A DNA stretch of 53,683 nt, taken from positions 5 through 53,687 of the IMG/VR virus record IMGVR_UViG_3300000117_004064; one strand, 5' to 3'. This DNA is from a virus. The notes below the pieces were generated by a model. That model searched no databases. It saw only the letters and a program-made list of their open reading frames with translations, and was not told the origin of the DNA. This document shows, one piece after another, positions 6,693 to 49,788 of the stretch; position 1 is the first letter of the stretch, and the number at the start of each line of letters is the position of its first letter. The translations under genes and the position numbers were made by a program.

Positions 6693-7202
6693 TTATCTGG
6701 TAAAAAATTCTAGCATTACTTCATTATCAAAAGATTGTTTTGCTAGATTTACAGAATAACAAACAAATTGGACATTATCTTTTATATACCCAATAGATGA
6801 ATCAATTCTATCTAAAGATGCTGTATATGGTGTGTTTTTAGTTAATCTAGAATATATAGACATATCATAACTAGTGATGGCACATTTACCATTCTGTTTA
6901 TTCCATAATTCTTGTAAGTATTCTTCTGTTAAATCCGATTCATGTTTTCGGTTTCTTGCTTTATTTAAATACCAAGTAAAATTACCCCTTTTTCTATTAT
7001 CACATATAGACAGCAAATGATTTTTCCGAGATTCGGTTACATTATACTGAGTATTTTTATTGCGCCAAGATGTAGAACATGATCTAGAACAAGCAAAATC
7101 TGTGTTAATTCTACCTTTTTTAACTTGCCTATTGAATTCTTTTTGTGGATAATTAAATTCCACCCTACAATTTTTGCAAATCAGGTTTACATTTTTACTC
7201 AT
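6693..7202 (-). CDS. HNH homing endonuclease
   Basis: 169 residues on the opposite strand to its neighbours. An N-terminal zinc-ribbon part has Cys9/Cys12 and Cys38/Cys42. The C-terminal HNH region has Cys107 and the SLDRIDSSIGYIKDNVQFVC block (129-148) seen in phage free-standing HNH enzymes. Such enzymes cut DNA of related phages lacking the insertion and so spread themselves. It is inserted between the early genes and the tmRNA and is more AT-rich than the nearby adhesin. A minus-strand TATAAATA at 7303-7310 could drive it late. Confidence 0.88.
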   Translation of the reverse strand: MSKNVNLICKNCRVEFNYPQKEFNRQVKKGRINTDFACSRSCSTSWRNKNTQYNVTESRKNHLLSICDNRKRGNFTWYLNKARNRKHESDLTEEYLQELWNKQNGKCAITSYDMSIYSRLTKNTPYTASLDRIDSSIGYIKDNVQFVCYSVNLAKQSFDNEVMLEFFTR

Positions 7203-7224
7203 TTACATTCCCCGCATTTTATGG

Positions 7225-7232
7225 TATAAATA
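7225..7232 (+). promoter_or_regulatory. T4-type late promoter octamer before the tmRNA acceptor piece
   Basis: TATAAATA at 7225-7232. With T4 geometry (-13 to -6), transcription would start near G7238, about 25 bases before the predicted P2 strand. Several such octamers are expected by chance in this base composition, so context carries the argument. Confidence 0.55.
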
Positions 7233-7237
7233 TTGTT

Positions 7238-7301
7238 GTTAGTTGATGATAGATGGATTAATATGAACAAGACGGGGTTTCGAATACCCCCTGCTCCACC
7301 A
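7238..7301 (+). ncRNA. ssrA: Two-piece (permuted) tmRNA, acceptor piece
   Basis: The 3' end of the tRNA-like domain lies upstream of its 5' half. The T-arm is perfect: GGGGT (7274-7278), loop TTCGAAT, ACCCC (7286-7290). The acceptor strand CTGCTCC (7291-7297) is followed by A and an encoded CCA (7299-7301). It pairs with GGGGCAG at 7354-7360, giving the G3-U70 wobble that alanyl-tRNA synthetase recognises. ATGAACA (7263-7269) complements TGTTCAT (7385-7391) in the coding piece, forming P2. The order acceptor piece, spacer, coding piece is that of alphaproteobacterial split tmRNAs. The 5' end is a prediction. Confidence 0.88.
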
Positions 7302-7340
7302 TTATTTATACAAATCAATCCAACCGAATACACCGGATAG

Positions 7341-7348
7341 TATAAATA
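7341..7348 (+). promoter_or_regulatory. T4-type late promoter octamer before the tmRNA coding piece
   Basis: TATAAATA at 7341-7348 in the spacer between the two tmRNA pieces. T4 geometry puts +1 at position 7354, exactly the first G of the coding piece. Confidence 0.5.
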
Positions 7349-7353
7349 ATTAT

Positions 7354-7540
7354 GGGGCAGAACTGGGAATCGATTGGCATAAGATGTTCATCAGGAGACA
7401 AACCGGGTGGTCTCGTAAGGACCAAACTAAAGTAAGAGCAAACAACTATGTAGCTCCTAAGGCTTACGCTCTCGCAGCATAAGTTCTTTGGGTATATTTC
7501 GGGGTGCCTAGAAACAGAAGGGGAGCGATATGCTCCCCGC
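7354..7540 (+). ncRNA. ssrA: Two-piece (permuted) tmRNA, coding piece
   Basis: It starts GGGGCAG (acceptor strand), then GGGAATCGATTGG, which resembles the tmRNA D-loop region. The P2 strand TGTTCAT follows at 7385-7391, and a GAGAC/GTCTC hairpin (7395-7414) fits PK1. The tag frame begins at GCA 7438: ANNYVAPKAYALAA, then TAA at 7480-7482. It ends in the hydrophobic ALAA signature that ClpXP-type proteases recognise. A 7-bp hairpin (7520-7538) probably marks the 3' end. The RNA would rescue stalled ribosomes and tag the products with the help of host SmpB. No smpB gene is seen in this window. Confidence 0.9.
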
Positions 7541-7552
7541 CCGATTTAATTA

Positions 7553-7560
7553 TATAAATA
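7553..7560 (+). promoter_or_regulatory. T4-type late promoter octamer before the spike/adhesin genes
   Basis: TATAAATA at 7553-7560, 33 bases before the TTG start of the spike-base gene, in an intergenic gap just after the tmRNA end. Confidence 0.6.
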
Positions 7561-7859: not shown

Positions 7860-10800
7860 ATGTTATCATTGGGTTTAGGTGTTACGTCAAGTTTAACTTC
7901 TGTTGATGCTTTAGTTAGAGGGTTATACTCAGCAGGTGGAGTTTTACCGAGAGTAGCTCTAGACTTTGATGACAACAATTATGTTTTAGATTCTGGTCCT
8001 GCTTCTTTCAATAAAGCTTTTATGGGCACCAGCCCCAAGCTTACCTATGCGGCCACCAGCAACAGCACGATGGTCGACTCCTCGGGCAACCTCGTCTGGG
8101 CGCCGCACAATTTGTTGACAGACAGTGAAGATTTTGAGGCTTGGAGTAAGAGTAACGTAACCGTAACGGACAACGCTACAACTGCACCTGACGGCACATT
8201 GGCATACAAGATTGTCAACACGGGCGACACGGGCGGAAAACTTCTTTATCAAAATGGTTTAGCTTCGGGGCAAACAACTGTTGCGGTCTATGCTAAGGTA
8301 GCGGAATTTACACGTCTTAGGATTAACGAGTTAGGTGGAAACCGCTTCAGTGCAAACTTCGATCTTTCCACTGAAAATGCAACTCTCACCTCTGGCGTAT
8401 ATGGACTTGATGCTCGAATAAAAAGCGTTGGAGGTGGATGGTATCTCTGCGAGATTGACCACAACGCACCAAGCGCAACAAACAGTATTGTAGGTTATCC
8501 TGCAAGCGCAGAGACGACAGCGGGCAATCCTAATTATGACGCTGATGACACCTCTGGGATTTACCTCTGGGGCGCACACGTCTACCGCTCCGACCTCGGC
8601 GGCATGGCCCCAGTCCCCGGCGCTGACACTGGCTTCGAAACCTACGTGCCAACCAACGGCTCGGCGGTGTACCTGCCTCGGGTTGGTCATCACGTTTACA
8701 ATGGCAGCACTTGGGTCAACGAGGGGCTGCTGATTGAGAGTGAGCCAAGGACGAATTTGGTTACGCATTCTGTTCCAGACAACACCAACTGGACTGTCAC
8801 GGGCCTTACTCTTGATGACACGACGGGCTATTTAGCGCCCGATGGAACGCAGGGTGCCGTGAAGCTGACAAGCTCTGGAAGCGGCACAAATCGGATTAGG
8901 TTTTTGACATCATTATCAGGGGTCAATTCATACTCCTTCTATGCAAAAGCTGGCACTGGCAGCTACGTTCAAATTCTTGATGGTTCTAGCGGCAATTATT
9001 ACGCAAACTTTGACCTCTCACTTGGCTCTGAGGGGACAAAAGGAAATCTTGTTACATCGTTAATTGAGGATGTTGGGAGCAGTTGGTATAGATGCACGAT
9101 GGTAACGGATGGCTCTGTTGCTGGAGTTCATTTTAACGTTTACATTGTAGACAGTGCTTCTGCTTATTATGGTGCATCATCTACATCAGCGGATACAGTC
9201 TACATCTGGGGCTTCCAACTCGAAGCAGCCCCCACCCCGTCCAGTTACATCCCCACGTCCGGCTCGACGGTCACTCGGGGCGGTCAGTCGCTCACGGTGC
9301 CACCTGCGGAGTTCGGGTGGAACACTGATGCCGTCTCGATCCAGATGGATGGGCGGATGACTTATGCGGATGAAGACGTAGGCGCTTCGGCGACGTTTGT
9401 CACTGCTGGTAGCTTCGTCACTGGCACCACCTACGTGATTGAAACAGTCGGCACGACAAACTTCACTGCTATCGGCGCTGAAGCCAACACGGTCGGCACG
9501 GTGTTTACGGCTACTGGCGCAGGATCGGGTGACGGTACAGCACTTCCCATGACCGCACAGCTTGCCAAGTGGGGCGGCGTTGGCATGGCGTTGGACACAC
9601 ATGACACGGCTACAGGCGGCTTTGTCTTCACGACTGATGACGGCAACACAGAATACGTCGAGACGAGTGACACAGCCCTCGCCCCCGGCATCAACGTCCC
9701 GTTCAACATCAGTTCCCGCCACGGTTCCACCTTCGTCAACGGCGCAGTGGACGGTGTGGCACTGACTGCCAGCACAACCCCAACGGCACTGCCAGACCTC
9801 TCCAGCACGAACCTCCAGATCGCCTACAACTTCATGGGGACCGTCGGGAAGTTCAGGCAGTTCGCTGGTGATGTTGGGGATGCTGGACTGGAAGAGGCGT
9901 CTCTTACGCCATACGGCACAGACTTCGTAATGACCATTACGACGACAGGTGCTGACGAAACCTTCACAATCCCCTGTCAAAATGTGGGCACGTTTGATGC
10001 CAGCATTGATTGGGGTGACGGCTCGTTCAGTGGCATTACCGCATACAACGATGCTGGCCTTGCGCACACCTTTGCGTCGGCTGGGGACCACACCATCCGC
10101 ATTAGCGGCAGCTTCCCTAACATCTACTTTAACCACGGCGGCGACAGACTAAAAGTCACCAGAGTAGATAATCTCGGGGATGTCGGGTGGGAGCGGTTAA
10201 GTCGAGCCTTCTTCGGCTGTTCGAACATGACCAGCTTCGCTAGCGGCAGTACGGACACCTCGGCAGTGACGGGAATGGACTTTATGTTCCGTGACTGCTC
10301 AAGCCTGACATCTCTTGATGTCTCAGGGTTTGACACCTCGGCAGTGACGGGAATGGACTTTATGTTCCGTGACTGCTCAAGTCTGACATCTCTTGATGTC
10401 TCAGGGTTTGACACCTCTGCAGTGACGAATATGAGCTATATGTTCTATAACTGCCCAAGTCTGACATCTCTTGATGTCTCAGGGTTTGACACTTCGTCAG
10501 TGGCGGATATGGGCGAGATGTTCCGAGACTGCTCAAGCCTGACATCTCTTGATGTGTCAGGGTTTGACACCTCGGCAGTGACGAATATGAGCTTTATATT
10601 CGCTAACTGCTCAAGCCTAACATCTCTTGACGTGTCAGGGCTTTTTGACACTTCGGCAGTGACGAATATGAGCTATATGTTCTATAACTGCCCAAGTCTG
10701 ACATCTCTTGATGTCTCAGGGTTTGACACCTCTGCAGTGACGTCTATGTCCAATATGTTCCGTTTCTGCTCAAGCCTGACAGACGTTATCGGCGTCGAAA

Positions 10801-11039
10801 ACTTCGACATTGAAGGGCTAAACAGTCTAGGCGATCTGAACAACTTCATGACCGGCGTGACGTTGCCAACATCCCGCTACGACGCACTTCTTGTCAACTG
10901 GGACGCACAAGAACCGTTTGATGGTATGTCGCCAGACTTTGGTAACTCCCAATACACGGCAGGTGGTACAGCGGCTGCGGCCAGAGCCAACCTAATCTCG
11001 AACGACGGCTGGACAATCACTGACGGAGGCACAGCATGA
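7860..11039 (+). CDS. Chimeric virion adhesin with BspA/DUF285 leucine-rich repeats
   Basis: 1059 residues. The first about 55 (AT-rich, like neighbouring genes) look like an anchor: LGVTSSLTSVDALVRGLYS and ALDFDDNNYVLDSG. From about 8020 the DNA becomes strongly GC-rich. Two related jelly-roll or lectin-like domains follow (about 80-240 and 300-470; both contain 'FSFYAK/VAVYAK' and 'YLWGAHVY/YIWGFQLE' strands). A PKD-like segment with DWGDGSF lies near 717-725. Seven 26-residue DUF285-type repeats (DTSAVTGMDFMFRDCSSL) lie near 799-980. It is probably the host-recognition fibre or spike. The base composition and domain mix suggest the distal part was acquired by recombination. Confidence 0.82.
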   Translation: MLSLGLGVTSSLTSVDALVRGLYSAGGVLPRVALDFDDNNYVLDSGPASFNKAFMGTSPKLTYAATSNSTMVDSSGNLVWAPHNLLTDSEDFEAWSKSNVTVTDNATTAPDGTLAYKIVNTGDTGGKLLYQNGLASGQTTVAVYAKVAEFTRLRINELGGNRFSANFDLSTENATLTSGVYGLDARIKSVGGGWYLCEIDHNAPSATNSIVGYPASAETTAGNPNYDADDTSGIYLWGAHVYRSDLGGMAPVPGADTGFETYVPTNGSAVYLPRVGHHVYNGSTWVNEGLLIESEPRTNLVTHSVPDNTNWTVTGLTLDDTTGYLAPDGTQGAVKLTSSGSGTNRIRFLTSLSGVNSYSFYAKAGTGSYVQILDGSSGNYYANFDLSLGSEGTKGNLVTSLIEDVGSSWYRCTMVTDGSVAGVHFNVYIVDSASAYYGASSTSADTVYIWGFQLEAAPTPSSYIPTSGSTVTRGGQSLTVPPAEFGWNTDAVSIQMDGRMTYADEDVGASATFVTAGSFVTGTTYVIETVGTTNFTAIGAEANTVGTVFTATGAGSGDGTALPMTAQLAKWGGVGMALDTHDTATGGFVFTTDDGNTEYVETSDTALAPGINVPFNISSRHGSTFVNGAVDGVALTASTTPTALPDLSSTNLQIAYNFMGTVGKFRQFAGDVGDAGLEEASLTPYGTDFVMTITTTGADETFTIPCQNVGTFDASIDWGDGSFSGITAYNDAGLAHTFASAGDHTIRISGSFPNIYFNHGGDRLKVTRVDNLGDVGWERLSRAFFGCSNMTSFASGSTDTSAVTGMDFMFRDCSSLTSLDVSGFDTSAVTGMDFMFRDCSSLTSLDVSGFDTSAVTNMSYMFYNCPSLTSLDVSGFDTSSVADMGEMFRDCSSLTSLDVSGFDTSAVTNMSFIFANCSSLTSLDVSGLFDTSAVTNMSYMFYNCPSLTSLDVSGFDTSAVTSMSNMFRFCSSLTDVIGVENFDIEGLNSLGDLNNFMTGVTLPTSRYDALLVNWDAQEPFDGMSPDFGNSQYTAGGTAAAARANLISNDGWTITDGGTA
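10254..10802 (+). repeat. Seven tandem 78-bp DUF285/LRR-coding repeats
   Basis: Units begin at 10254, 10332, 10410, 10488, 10566, 10647 and 10725. The period is 78 bases except for one unit with an extra codon (81). Units 1 and 2 are nearly identical over 78 bases, so copy number can change by slippage or recombination. Each encodes one 26-residue repeat of the adhesin. Confidence 0.92.
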
Positions 11040-33719: not shown

Positions 33720-35936
33720 ATGACAAACGGTCTAGACATGAGGGATTTTTTGTCCCAAACTAAATTCTATGAAGGTTATTCACGGTATATTGACGACGAA
33801 AACAGATATGAAAGTTGGGATGAATCTGTTGACCGTGTAATGGCAATGCACAAAGGTTATTATAAAGATAAGATGTCTACTGCACTTGCAAATGAGATGG
33901 CAACTGCTAGTAGTGCATATAAAGAAAAACGTGTTCTAGGCGCACAACGTGCTTTACAGTTTGGTGGCGACCAGCTGCTTAAACATCAAATGAAAATGTA
34001 TAACTGCACATCCTCTTATGTAGATCGTGCATCGTTCTTTGGTGAATATTTCTATATTCTTTTGTGTGGTGCAGGTGCAGGTTTCTCTGTCCAGAACCAC
34101 CATGTTAATAAACTCCCTGCTATCCAAGAACGTAAGAAGCAAGCAAAAGGTTATATTGTAGAAGATAGTATTGAAGGTTGGGCTTCTGCTCTAGATGTTC
34201 TTATGTCATCTTACTTTGTTGGTGGTGGTAACTACCCTGAGTTTGAAGGTCGTAGAGTATTCTTTGATATGACTAACATTCGTCCCAAGGGCGCAAAGAT
34301 TTCTGGTGGATTTAAAGCACCGGGTCCAGATGGTCTGCGTCAGGCACTTGACCGTATTGAATACCTTATTCAAGGTGTTGTAATGGGTTCTAAGGAATCT
34401 GTGCAGTTACGTCCTATTCATGTCTATGATATTGCTATGCACTGTGCTGATGCTGTCCTGTCTGGTGGTGTGCGGCGGTCTGCTACTATTTGTCTGTTCT
34501 CTCCTGATGATACAGAGATGATGAATGCCAAGACAGGCAACTGGTTTACTGATAATCCACAACGTGCAAGGTCTAATAACTCTGCTGTTATTGTTCGTAA
34601 AGAAACTACCAAAGAACAGTTTATGGGTATCATGGACAGCATTAAGCAGTTTGGTGAACCCGGATTTGTATTTGTAGAATCTACTGAGCATACAACTAAC
34701 CCATGTGTAGAGATTGGTATGTTCCCACAGATTGATGGTGAGTCTGGTTGGCAGGGTTGTAACCTGACAGAGATTAACGGTGGACTGTGTGTTGATGAAG
34801 AGTCATTCTACAAGGCATGTGAAGCTGGTGCTATTCTTGGCACACTACAGGCAGGATATACAGATTTTACATATTTGCCTGATACAACAAAAGCAATCTT
34901 TGACCGTGAGGCACTTCTTGGTGTGTCTATCACTGGATGGATGAATAATCCTGATATTCTTTTTGATGGCAAGATTCTAGAAAAGGGTGCAGAGATTGTT
35001 AAAGAAACTAATAAAAGAGTTGCTGAGTTACTTGGTATTAATGCTGCTGCTCGGACTACTTGTGTTAAGCCTTCTGGCAATGCTTCTGTACTCCTTGGCA
35101 CTGCAAGCGGAATTCATGCTGAACACTCTGAGCAATACATTAGAAACATTCAACTGAACAAAGACTCTGAAGTTGCACAGTTGATTGCTAAGACTAACCC
35201 TAACATGGTAGAAGACTCTGTATGGTCTGCTAATGGAACTGACTTTGTTGTCTCGTTCCCTATTACACCCAAGCAAGGTTCTATTCTGAAAGATAAACTT
35301 ATTGGAACTGACCACCTTGACTTAGTTGCCAAGGCACAAAAGCATTGGGTAAACACTGGTAAGAATCCAGAACTATGCGCAGACCCTACAGTATCACATA
35401 ACGTTTCTAATACTATTCTAGTAGAGGATTGGGATGATGTTGCTGAATATGTTTATAGCAATAGGGATAACTTTGCTGGTATTTCTTTCTTGTCTACTTC
35501 TGGTGATAAAGATTTCAATCAAGCGCCAAACACTGAAGTACTCGACGCTGAAAAAATGGTTGAAAAGTATGGAGTGGCTGCTGTATTAGCATCTGGTCTA
35601 GTTGTAGATGGTCTACAGGCATTTGATGACCTTTGGATGGGTTGTATGACTGCACAGGGATATGGTGAAGATATCTCTGCTGAAAGTTCTAAGAACACAC
35701 TGAAGAAAGATTGGGTGCGTAGGTTTACTGCATTCGCACATAAATACCTTGAAGGTGATCTGAAGAAAACCGAATACTGTTTGAAGGATGCATATCTTAT
35801 TCACAAGTGGGAAAAGATTCAAAGGTCTTACACGCAGGTAGAATGGATTTCTGAATTGTCGGAAAAGAAGTTTACTGATGTTGATACTCTTGGTGCTGCT
35901 GCATGTGCAGGTGGTGCTTGCGAGATTGACTTTTAA
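33720..35936 (+). CDS. nrdJ: Adenosylcobalamin-dependent (class II, monomeric) ribonucleotide reductase
   Basis: 738 residues, the size of the Lactobacillus leichmannii-type monomeric enzyme. It reduces ribonucleoside triphosphates using a B12-derived radical. MYNCTSSYVDR carries one active-site Cys region. GGVRRSATICLF and NPCVEIGMF followed by GWQGCNLTEING hold the radical Cys and Glu; the C-terminal ACAGGACEIDF contains the redox Cys pair. It implies the host makes or imports cobalamin. It has its own promoter and supplies dNTPs with ThyX. Confidence 0.93.
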   Translation: MTNGLDMRDFLSQTKFYEGYSRYIDDENRYESWDESVDRVMAMHKGYYKDKMSTALANEMATASSAYKEKRVLGAQRALQFGGDQLLKHQMKMYNCTSSYVDRASFFGEYFYILLCGAGAGFSVQNHHVNKLPAIQERKKQAKGYIVEDSIEGWASALDVLMSSYFVGGGNYPEFEGRRVFFDMTNIRPKGAKISGGFKAPGPDGLRQALDRIEYLIQGVVMGSKESVQLRPIHVYDIAMHCADAVLSGGVRRSATICLFSPDDTEMMNAKTGNWFTDNPQRARSNNSAVIVRKETTKEQFMGIMDSIKQFGEPGFVFVESTEHTTNPCVEIGMFPQIDGESGWQGCNLTEINGGLCVDEESFYKACEAGAILGTLQAGYTDFTYLPDTTKAIFDREALLGVSITGWMNNPDILFDGKILEKGAEIVKETNKRVAELLGINAAARTTCVKPSGNASVLLGTASGIHAEHSEQYIRNIQLNKDSEVAQLIAKTNPNMVEDSVWSANGTDFVVSFPITPKQGSILKDKLIGTDHLDLVAKAQKHWVNTGKNPELCADPTVSHNVSNTILVEDWDDVAEYVYSNRDNFAGISFLSTSGDKDFNQAPNTEVLDAEKMVEKYGVAAVLASGLVVDGLQAFDDLWMGCMTAQGYGEDISAESSKNTLKKDWVRRFTAFAHKYLEGDLKKTEYCLKDAYLIHKWEKIQRSYTQVEWISELSEKKFTDVDTLGAAACAGGACEIDF

Positions 35937-48859: not shown

Positions 48860-49154
48860 AACTAAGACTGGTAAAGAACTAGCACCACAGAAACTGACTA
48901 CAGTAAAAGATGATGTTAAGTTCTATAAGCCAGATGGAACATACTGCACTCTAAATGAATGTATAGATAAGTTTGATAGTGTTATTCAAGTAGTAGAAAA
49001 GACTGTCAAACGTAATCAGCACTATGCCTACTATCATGTCTGTAATGAGTGTGGTAGAAAACGAATGTCATCTAGAAACAAAACCGATACAGCACAATCT
49101 AAACGTCGTGCTGATCTTGGTTATATTGAAGTGGAAAAAGAAGATAATGAATAA
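48822..49154 (+). CDS. Small protein with zinc-finger-like Cys motif
   Basis: 110 residues from ATG 48822, inside the end of the exonuclease gene. A basic N-terminus; CNECGRKRMSSRNK near residue 77 is one Cys pair, and CTLNEC earlier could be the partner. It overlaps the ClpP-like gene by eight bases. Function unknown. Confidence 0.6.
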   Translation: MKQNKNNVNLKGETKTGKELAPQKLTTVKDDVKFYKPDGTYCTLNECIDKFDSVIQVVEKTVKRNQHYAYYHVCNECGRKRMSSRNKTDTAQSKRRADLGYIEVEKEDNE

Positions 49155-49788
49155 CATGGACCCTCTAGGACTTGATGAAATACTTGGTATGGGACAGAAG
49201 AATAAGACAATCTTTTCTAACAAGTCTCTTGTTCAGCAGCATGACCTTTATCTAACAGGTGAGATTGGTCCTGCTGACCAATATACAGACTGGTTTGAAC
49301 TTCTGCGTAATGCCAGTAAGTCTGATATTATTAGGATTCATATTAACTCCTATGGTGGTGACTTGTTTACTGCTGTTCAGCTGATGCGTTGTATTACTGA
49401 GTCTGAAGGTAATATTATTGCATCTGTTGAAGGTGCCTGTATGTCTGCTGCTACTATGGTATTCCTACAAGCTGATACCTTTGAAGTGTCTGAACACTCT
49501 GCCTTTATGTTCCACAACTATTCTGGTATCTCTATTGGTAAGGGTGGAGAAATGTTTGCTCAAGTATCTTTTGAGAAAAAACTGTTTGACAAACTGATGA
49601 ATAAGGTGTATAGTGAATTCCTGAGTGAGAATGAAATCAAAGATATCCTAGAAGGTCGTGACCTTTGGTTGGATGGTGATGAAGTTATTACTCGCTTGAA
49701 GTCTATGAAAAAAGATGCTGAACAGTTAGAACTTAAACTTGGTGATGATGATGACGACAAAGACGCAGGAAATAATGTGGGATGTTGA
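49147..49788 (+). CDS. ClpP-like serine protease
   Basis: 213 residues from ATG 49147. DIIRIHINSYGGDLFTAVQL is the ClpP oxyanion-hole strand (SYGGD), EGACMSAATMVFLQA carries the catalytic Ser, and EHSAFMFHNYSGISIGKGGE carries the catalytic His. The C-terminus is acidic. ClpP-type enzymes occur in many marine phages and may work with host ClpX/ClpA. With the phage tmRNA in the same genome it could help degrade tagged proteins, which is speculative. Confidence 0.88.
   Translation: MNNMDPLGLDEILGMGQKNKTIFSNKSLVQQHDLYLTGEIGPADQYTDWFELLRNASKSDIIRIHINSYGGDLFTAVQLMRCITESEGNIIASVEGACMSAATMVFLQADTFEVSEHSAFMFHNYSGISIGKGGEMFAQVSFEKKLFDKLMNKVYSEFLSENEIKDILEGRDLWLDGDEVITRLKSMKKDAEQLELKLGDDDDDKDAGNNVGC

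Follow-up and report, generated by a model that had tools for sequence, protein, structure and literature searches.

The window, i.e. the entire stretch of viral DNA analysed here (53,683 nucleotides), harbours a circularly permuted tmRNA gene at positions 7238-7544 of the plus strand, which confirms the observation made in the initial annotation. The acceptor 3' strand together with the CCA (7291-7301) precedes the acceptor 5' strand (7354-7360), i.e. the order of the parts is permuted. The acceptor stem with its G3-U70 pair, the T-arm, the CCA and the tag lie where this annotation had placed them, both according to our reading of the sequence and to Rfam. The features of the locus are as follows.

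7225-7232, plus strand: T4-type late-promoter box TATAAATA, exact match
7238-7301, plus strand: acceptor (tRNA-like 3') piece, from sequence reading, Rfam and covariation
7263-7265 and 7268-7270, plus strand: 5' strands of P2, in the acceptor piece
7274-7290, plus strand: T-arm, with T-stem GGGGT (7274-7278) / ACCCC (7286-7290) and loop TTCGAAT
7291-7297, plus strand: acceptor 3' strand, CTGCTCC
7298-7301, plus strand: encoded ACCA, directly after the acceptor 3' strand
7302-7353, plus strand: intervening sequence, expected to be excised, from folding and related phage genes
7302-7311 and 7340-7349, plus strand: arms of the spacer hairpin, TTATTTATAC and GTATAAATAA, from folding
7341-7348, plus strand: second perfect TATAAATA, within a hairpin arm, its predicted +1 being the acceptor G1 (7354)
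7354-7544, plus strand: message-like piece, from sequence reading, Rfam, covariation and relatives
7354-7360, plus strand: acceptor 5' strand, GGGGCAG, in the message-like piece
7361-7373, plus strand: D-like region, in the message-like piece
7374-7376 and 7378-7380, plus strand: 3' strands of P2, in the message-like piece
7408-7412/7420-7424, plus strand: hairpin of the message-like piece, from sequence reading and relatives
7438-7482, plus strand: tag reading frame ANNYVAPKAYALAA followed by TAA (GCA...TAA), read from the sequence
7499-7544, plus strand: 3' domain of the message-like piece, outer helix 7499-7503/7540-7544
7507-7519, plus strand: conserved CCTAGAAACAGAA, inside the 3' domain
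7520-7526/7532-7538, plus strand: inner hairpin of the 3' domain, complementary in relatives though the sequence differs

In an Rfam search of the window, run at gathering thresholds, the model RF04321 (tmRNA_permuted) matches positions 7238-7482 of the plus strand with 82.3 bits (E 2.7e-14; cut-off 47 bits), while RF01849 (alpha_tmRNA) matches positions 7198-7529 of the same strand with 51.5 bits. Although the latter score exceeds its cut-off of 50 bits by a small margin, RF01849 is still the top match within its clan and better than the models of other lineages; L203, a relative carrying the same tag, reaches 91.2 bits with this model. The best clan match and the score of L203 support the assignment of the gene to the alphaproteobacterial type. 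Hence, both models for split tmRNAs, a search proposed in the initial annotation, score above their cut-offs. Together with the order of the parts and the T4 core replication genes present in the window (UvsX, a DnaB-type helicase 60-64% identical to those of Kyanoviridae, and thymidylate synthase), these matches bear out the claim that a T4-like phage carries a permuted two-piece tmRNA. The alphaproteobacterial origin also put forward holds for the type of the gene but does not extend to the host, since the phage Melnitz possesses an alphaproteobacterial-type tmRNA and yet infects a gammaproteobacterium (PMC9004378). A scan of bacterial genomes for host tmRNA candidates with a D-region pattern gave six matches, all of which look like coding sequence. 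ARAGORN called three tRNAs in the window and not the permuted tmRNA gene; among the loci tested it also misses L062, L213, L214 and L216 while detecting L203, L212 and nine others. Some phage two-piece tmRNA genes thus escape surveys based on this program.

A pattern scan of viral contigs yielded 110 stretches, many of which were judged on inspection to be permuted tmRNAs, and covariation was evaluated in 30 distinct phage permuted tmRNA sequences by comparison with shuffles. In the window, all seven pairs between 7354-7360 and 7291-7297 are formed, G3-U70 among them. Of the 210 acceptor-stem cells in the 30 sequences, 209 are paired (shuffle mean 186, maximum 196), as are all 150 T-stem cells (shuffle mean 99, maximum 113); these counts are partly built in because the collection of the sequences relied on those pairings. 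Compensatory changes preserve both stems. Position 3 of the acceptor stem is G-U in all 30 sequences, and in L213 pair 4 is flipped from G-C to C-G.

P2 pairing, on the other hand, played no part in collecting these sequences. The standard P2 helix, consisting of 7263-7265/7378-7380 and 7268-7270/7374-7376 and located directly beside GAC and TCGAY, has its inner three pairs formed in 87 of 90 cells (shuffle mean 52, maximum 65) with many compensatory changes, and pairing falls to 40 of 90 if the partner is shifted by one column. The window shares this layout with L035, with compensatory changes in both halves (AUG-AA-CAA/UUG-G-CAU versus CUG-AA-CAG/CUG-G-CAG). In the window P2 amounts to 3 + 3 base pairs flanking an internal loop. 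It is not part of the minimum-energy structure obtained by simple folding: for the window sequence alone, the unconstrained fold is more stable by about 2 kcal/mol than one with the standard P2 imposed, and by about 1 than one with the helix drawn in the initial annotation. The latter, a 7-bp P2 (7263-7269/7385-7391), is perfectly complementary in the window and L062 and not complementary in L213, L214, L215 and L035. Covariance across related phages, suggested there as a check, therefore upholds the acceptor stem and not the drawn P2 which, lacking complementarity in these four relatives, would be an alternative arising by chance or else a peculiarity of the window and L062.

The tag reading frame follows the resume codon and ends in a hydrophobic -AA (ALAA). 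A tag scan returned six viral stretches, and ANNYVAPKAYALAA is also encoded by L062, L203/L215 (one and the same contig), L212 and L213, while L214 and L216 bear a one-codon variant with GTA for GCA just before the last alanine codon. Hence, at least seven contigs, the window counted, bear this tag or its one-codon variant. Among the relatives with the same tag it is kept despite nucleotide differences, which are synonymous. Similarly, the inner hairpin of the 3' domain is changed but still complementary in L215 (GGGGAC/GTCCCC) and L213 (GAGAGTC/GACTCTC). Phage two-piece tmRNAs thereby gain a well-supported family whose members have a tag in common.

The syntenic relative L062 is about 75-94% identical to the window across larger neighbouring stretches. 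Within the tmRNA gene, 152 of the 156 bases at 7238-7393 are common to the two, as against 31 of 44 at 7394-7437; L214, conversely, agrees with the window in 88 of 89 bases over 7394-7482 and in 88 of 156 over 7238-7393. Judged from these identities, the gene is a mosaic whose tRNA-like part and spacer are L062-like and whose pre-tag and tag region is L214-like, with a junction near 7394-7407; the tRNA-like and message-like halves thus recombine between phages. As the high identity to L062 in the tRNA-like part may stem from recent exchange rather than from selection alone, covariation is the better evidence of function. In a DNA comparison with named phages no tmRNA match was found except a weak one of the L062 gene to a Streptomyces phage tmRNA.

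Several further genes of the window are worth recording. Directly upstream of the tmRNA gene, on the opposite strand, lies an Endonuclease VII / HNH-type gene (6693-7202, minus strand); L062 has no DNA matching this stretch beside its tmRNA. At 7860-11039 (plus strand) a tail protein of 1059 aa is encoded whose C-terminal part contains leucine-rich repeats of the DUF285/BspA type; the neighbouring small tail-fibre gene has a late box to itself, at 7553. The ribonucleotide reductase (33720-35936, plus strand) is 61% identical to that of Rhizobium phage RHph_I1_18, other named phages being far lower bar one (56%). A ClpP-like serine protease gene is found at 49024-49788 (plus strand; PHROG 1827, PF00574 31.8 bits), the protein having candidate catalytic Ser and His residues in MSAA and FHN contexts. 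It could degrade tmRNA-tagged proteins or equally play a role elsewhere; we claim no association of ClpP with tmRNA since it is present in just four of 31 tmRNA-bearing records, most of which are fragments.

The intervening sequence folds into a hairpin separated by four nucleotides (TTAT) from the acceptor G1. Most related phage genes possess a spacer hairpin as well, of about 8-13 bp and unrelated sequence, mostly with the same 4-nt gap to G1; in L214 and L216 it encloses a T-arm-like CACGGTTCGATTCCGTG, possibly a tRNA remnant. The TATAAATA at 7341 is common, among the phage tmRNAs found, to the window and L062 only; when viral contigs were scanned for TATAAATA-N5-GGGG, the sole matches were L062 and two non-tmRNA stretches (L217, L218). 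We considered this box as a conserved promoter and rejected it in that capacity, the hairpins of other phages being unrelated in sequence at that place. Being shared with L062 only, the box is probably a coincidence, with a minority chance of promoter function. As its predicted start is G1, the message piece would then need no RNase P cut; that the two pieces are made as separate late transcripts, the permuted gene having turned into a truly split one, we regard as unlikely.

A different situation is encountered upstream of the gene. In T4, late genes carry an 8-bp TATA box starting at -13 (PMC2988020), and the predicted +1 of the box at 7225 is 7238, the first base of the RF04321 match. The arrangement (T/G)ATAAATA, five nucleotides and GTT(C/A)G recurs in the window, L062, L214 and L215 and, by eye, in L213. 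Exact copies of TATAAATA around the locus lie at 7225, 7341 and 7553 (plus strand) and 7310 (minus strand), so that four of the ten copies on both strands of the whole window fall within 7225-7560. At most 110 nt upstream of phage permuted tmRNAs, NATAAATA is present in 21 of 36 genes and exact TATAAATA in 13 of 36, where the chance expectation for the exact box is about 0-0.08 per 110 nt; the 36 are not independent of each other, some being related. Most of these boxes lie at a near-constant distance of 46-51 nt ahead of the T-stem. This conserved box, found in relatives as well, makes expression late in infection, as proposed in the initial annotation, likely.

We assign a probability of about 0.85 to the reading that the locus encodes a functional alphaproteobacterial-type two-piece tmRNA used together with host SmpB. 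Gene anatomy, covariation, the conserved tag and the conserved late box on which it builds are shown by the analysis; transcription timing, processing, charging and tagging are deduced. A precursor would start near 7238 from the T4-type late promoter and, by analogy with bacterial permuted tmRNAs, would be cut by host enzymes to give the 3' end at the CCA (7301) and, via RNase P, the 5' end at G7354, the spacer being discarded. The two pieces would be held together by the acceptor stem and P2, and G3-U70 would be recognised by the host alanyl-tRNA synthetase. Where a ribosome has stalled because its mRNA is broken or lacks a stop codon, host SmpB and EF-Tu would then deliver the tmRNA to it; this ribosome would switch to the tag and be released, and the tagged fragment would be passed to Clp-type proteolysis. 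No SmpB gene was found in the window, which represents a 53.7-kb fragment, so SmpB would be supplied by the host or by a portion of the genome outside this fragment. The most likely benefit to the phage would be to keep ribosomes free late in infection.

The recurrent late box bears on the question of whether such tmRNAs serve early, in recycling host proteins, or late, in freeing ribosomes. An early-acting tmRNA tagging host proteins for breakdown and thereby feeding phage protein synthesis was proposed by the authors of the Melnitz study on the basis of a predicted early promoter (PMC9004378). For the window we deem this improbable given the consensus late box directly upstream of the gene, a box which the relatives sharing the tag, Melnitz itself and many further phage genes possess too. 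Still less probable is a decoy which binds SmpB, AlaRS or ribosomes and so blocks host trans-translation. A precedent is provided by the tmRNA of phage DS6A, which comprises little beyond the tRNA-like domain, a similar molecule strongly inhibiting tmRNA (PMC4131195; PMC11915505); yet a decoy would have no need of what is present here, namely a complete message part whose conserved tag is open and ends in ALAA and in which the resume region and the 3' domain are conserved. That the gene is recently captured, non-functional host baggage, as its evident recombination into a mosaic of two relatives' versions might suggest, is highly improbable in view of base pairs and a tag maintained across strongly diverged phages and, for the tag or its variant, on all the contigs counted above.

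The functional two-piece tmRNA favoured here is not new in kind, although the initial annotation had implied novelty, since such a molecule was described in 2022 in the T4-like phage Melnitz and reported too for Pelagibacter phage Mosig; database phages comprise 53 two-piece tmRNAs, 50 of them marine or aquatic (PMC9004378). New details are the late box upstream of many genes, the spacer hairpins in most, the mosaic gene and the late box in the hairpin at G1. The gene of the isolated Methylophilales phage Melnitz EXVC044M (MZ577097, 45984-46436; annotated SsrA, RF04321 113.4 bits) resembles that of the window in belonging to a T4-like phage (Kyanoviridae), in being permuted with an encoded CCA and in its upstream TATAAATA and spacer hairpin, with TGAT preceding the acceptor G1. 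Its tag, read from the sequence as ANDNYVPVDYALAA, is similar yet different; the T-loop differs, the spacer is far longer and no TATAAATA is located at -13 of G1. Moreover, the Melnitz tmRNA is described with a glutamine riboswitch (PMC9004378), whereas Rfam detects none in the window.

Rhizobium phage RHph_I1_18, an isolated phage of an alphaproteobacterium, likewise carries a permuted tmRNA (MN988519, 15520-15713, complement; alpha_tmRNA 60.3 bits), a deposited note on the adjoining tRNA mentioning SsrA. In contrast to the window, its spacer measures about 6 nt, its tag is ANDNSVQVRLAA and the gene lies within a tRNA cluster. The tmRNAs of Bxz1, Cali, Wildcat and phage G are one-piece molecules; they are phage-encoded like that of the window but, unlike it, not permuted. 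These mycobacteriophages (Bxz1, Cali, Wildcat) and Bacillus phage G are listed as phages with ssrA (PMC4131195). With the alphaproteobacterial permuted tmRNA (RF01849/RF04321), finally, the window gene shares the order of the parts, the tRNA-like domain, a tag and the 3' AACAGAA region, while differing from it in a shorter 3' domain, a weaker P2 and a late phage promoter.
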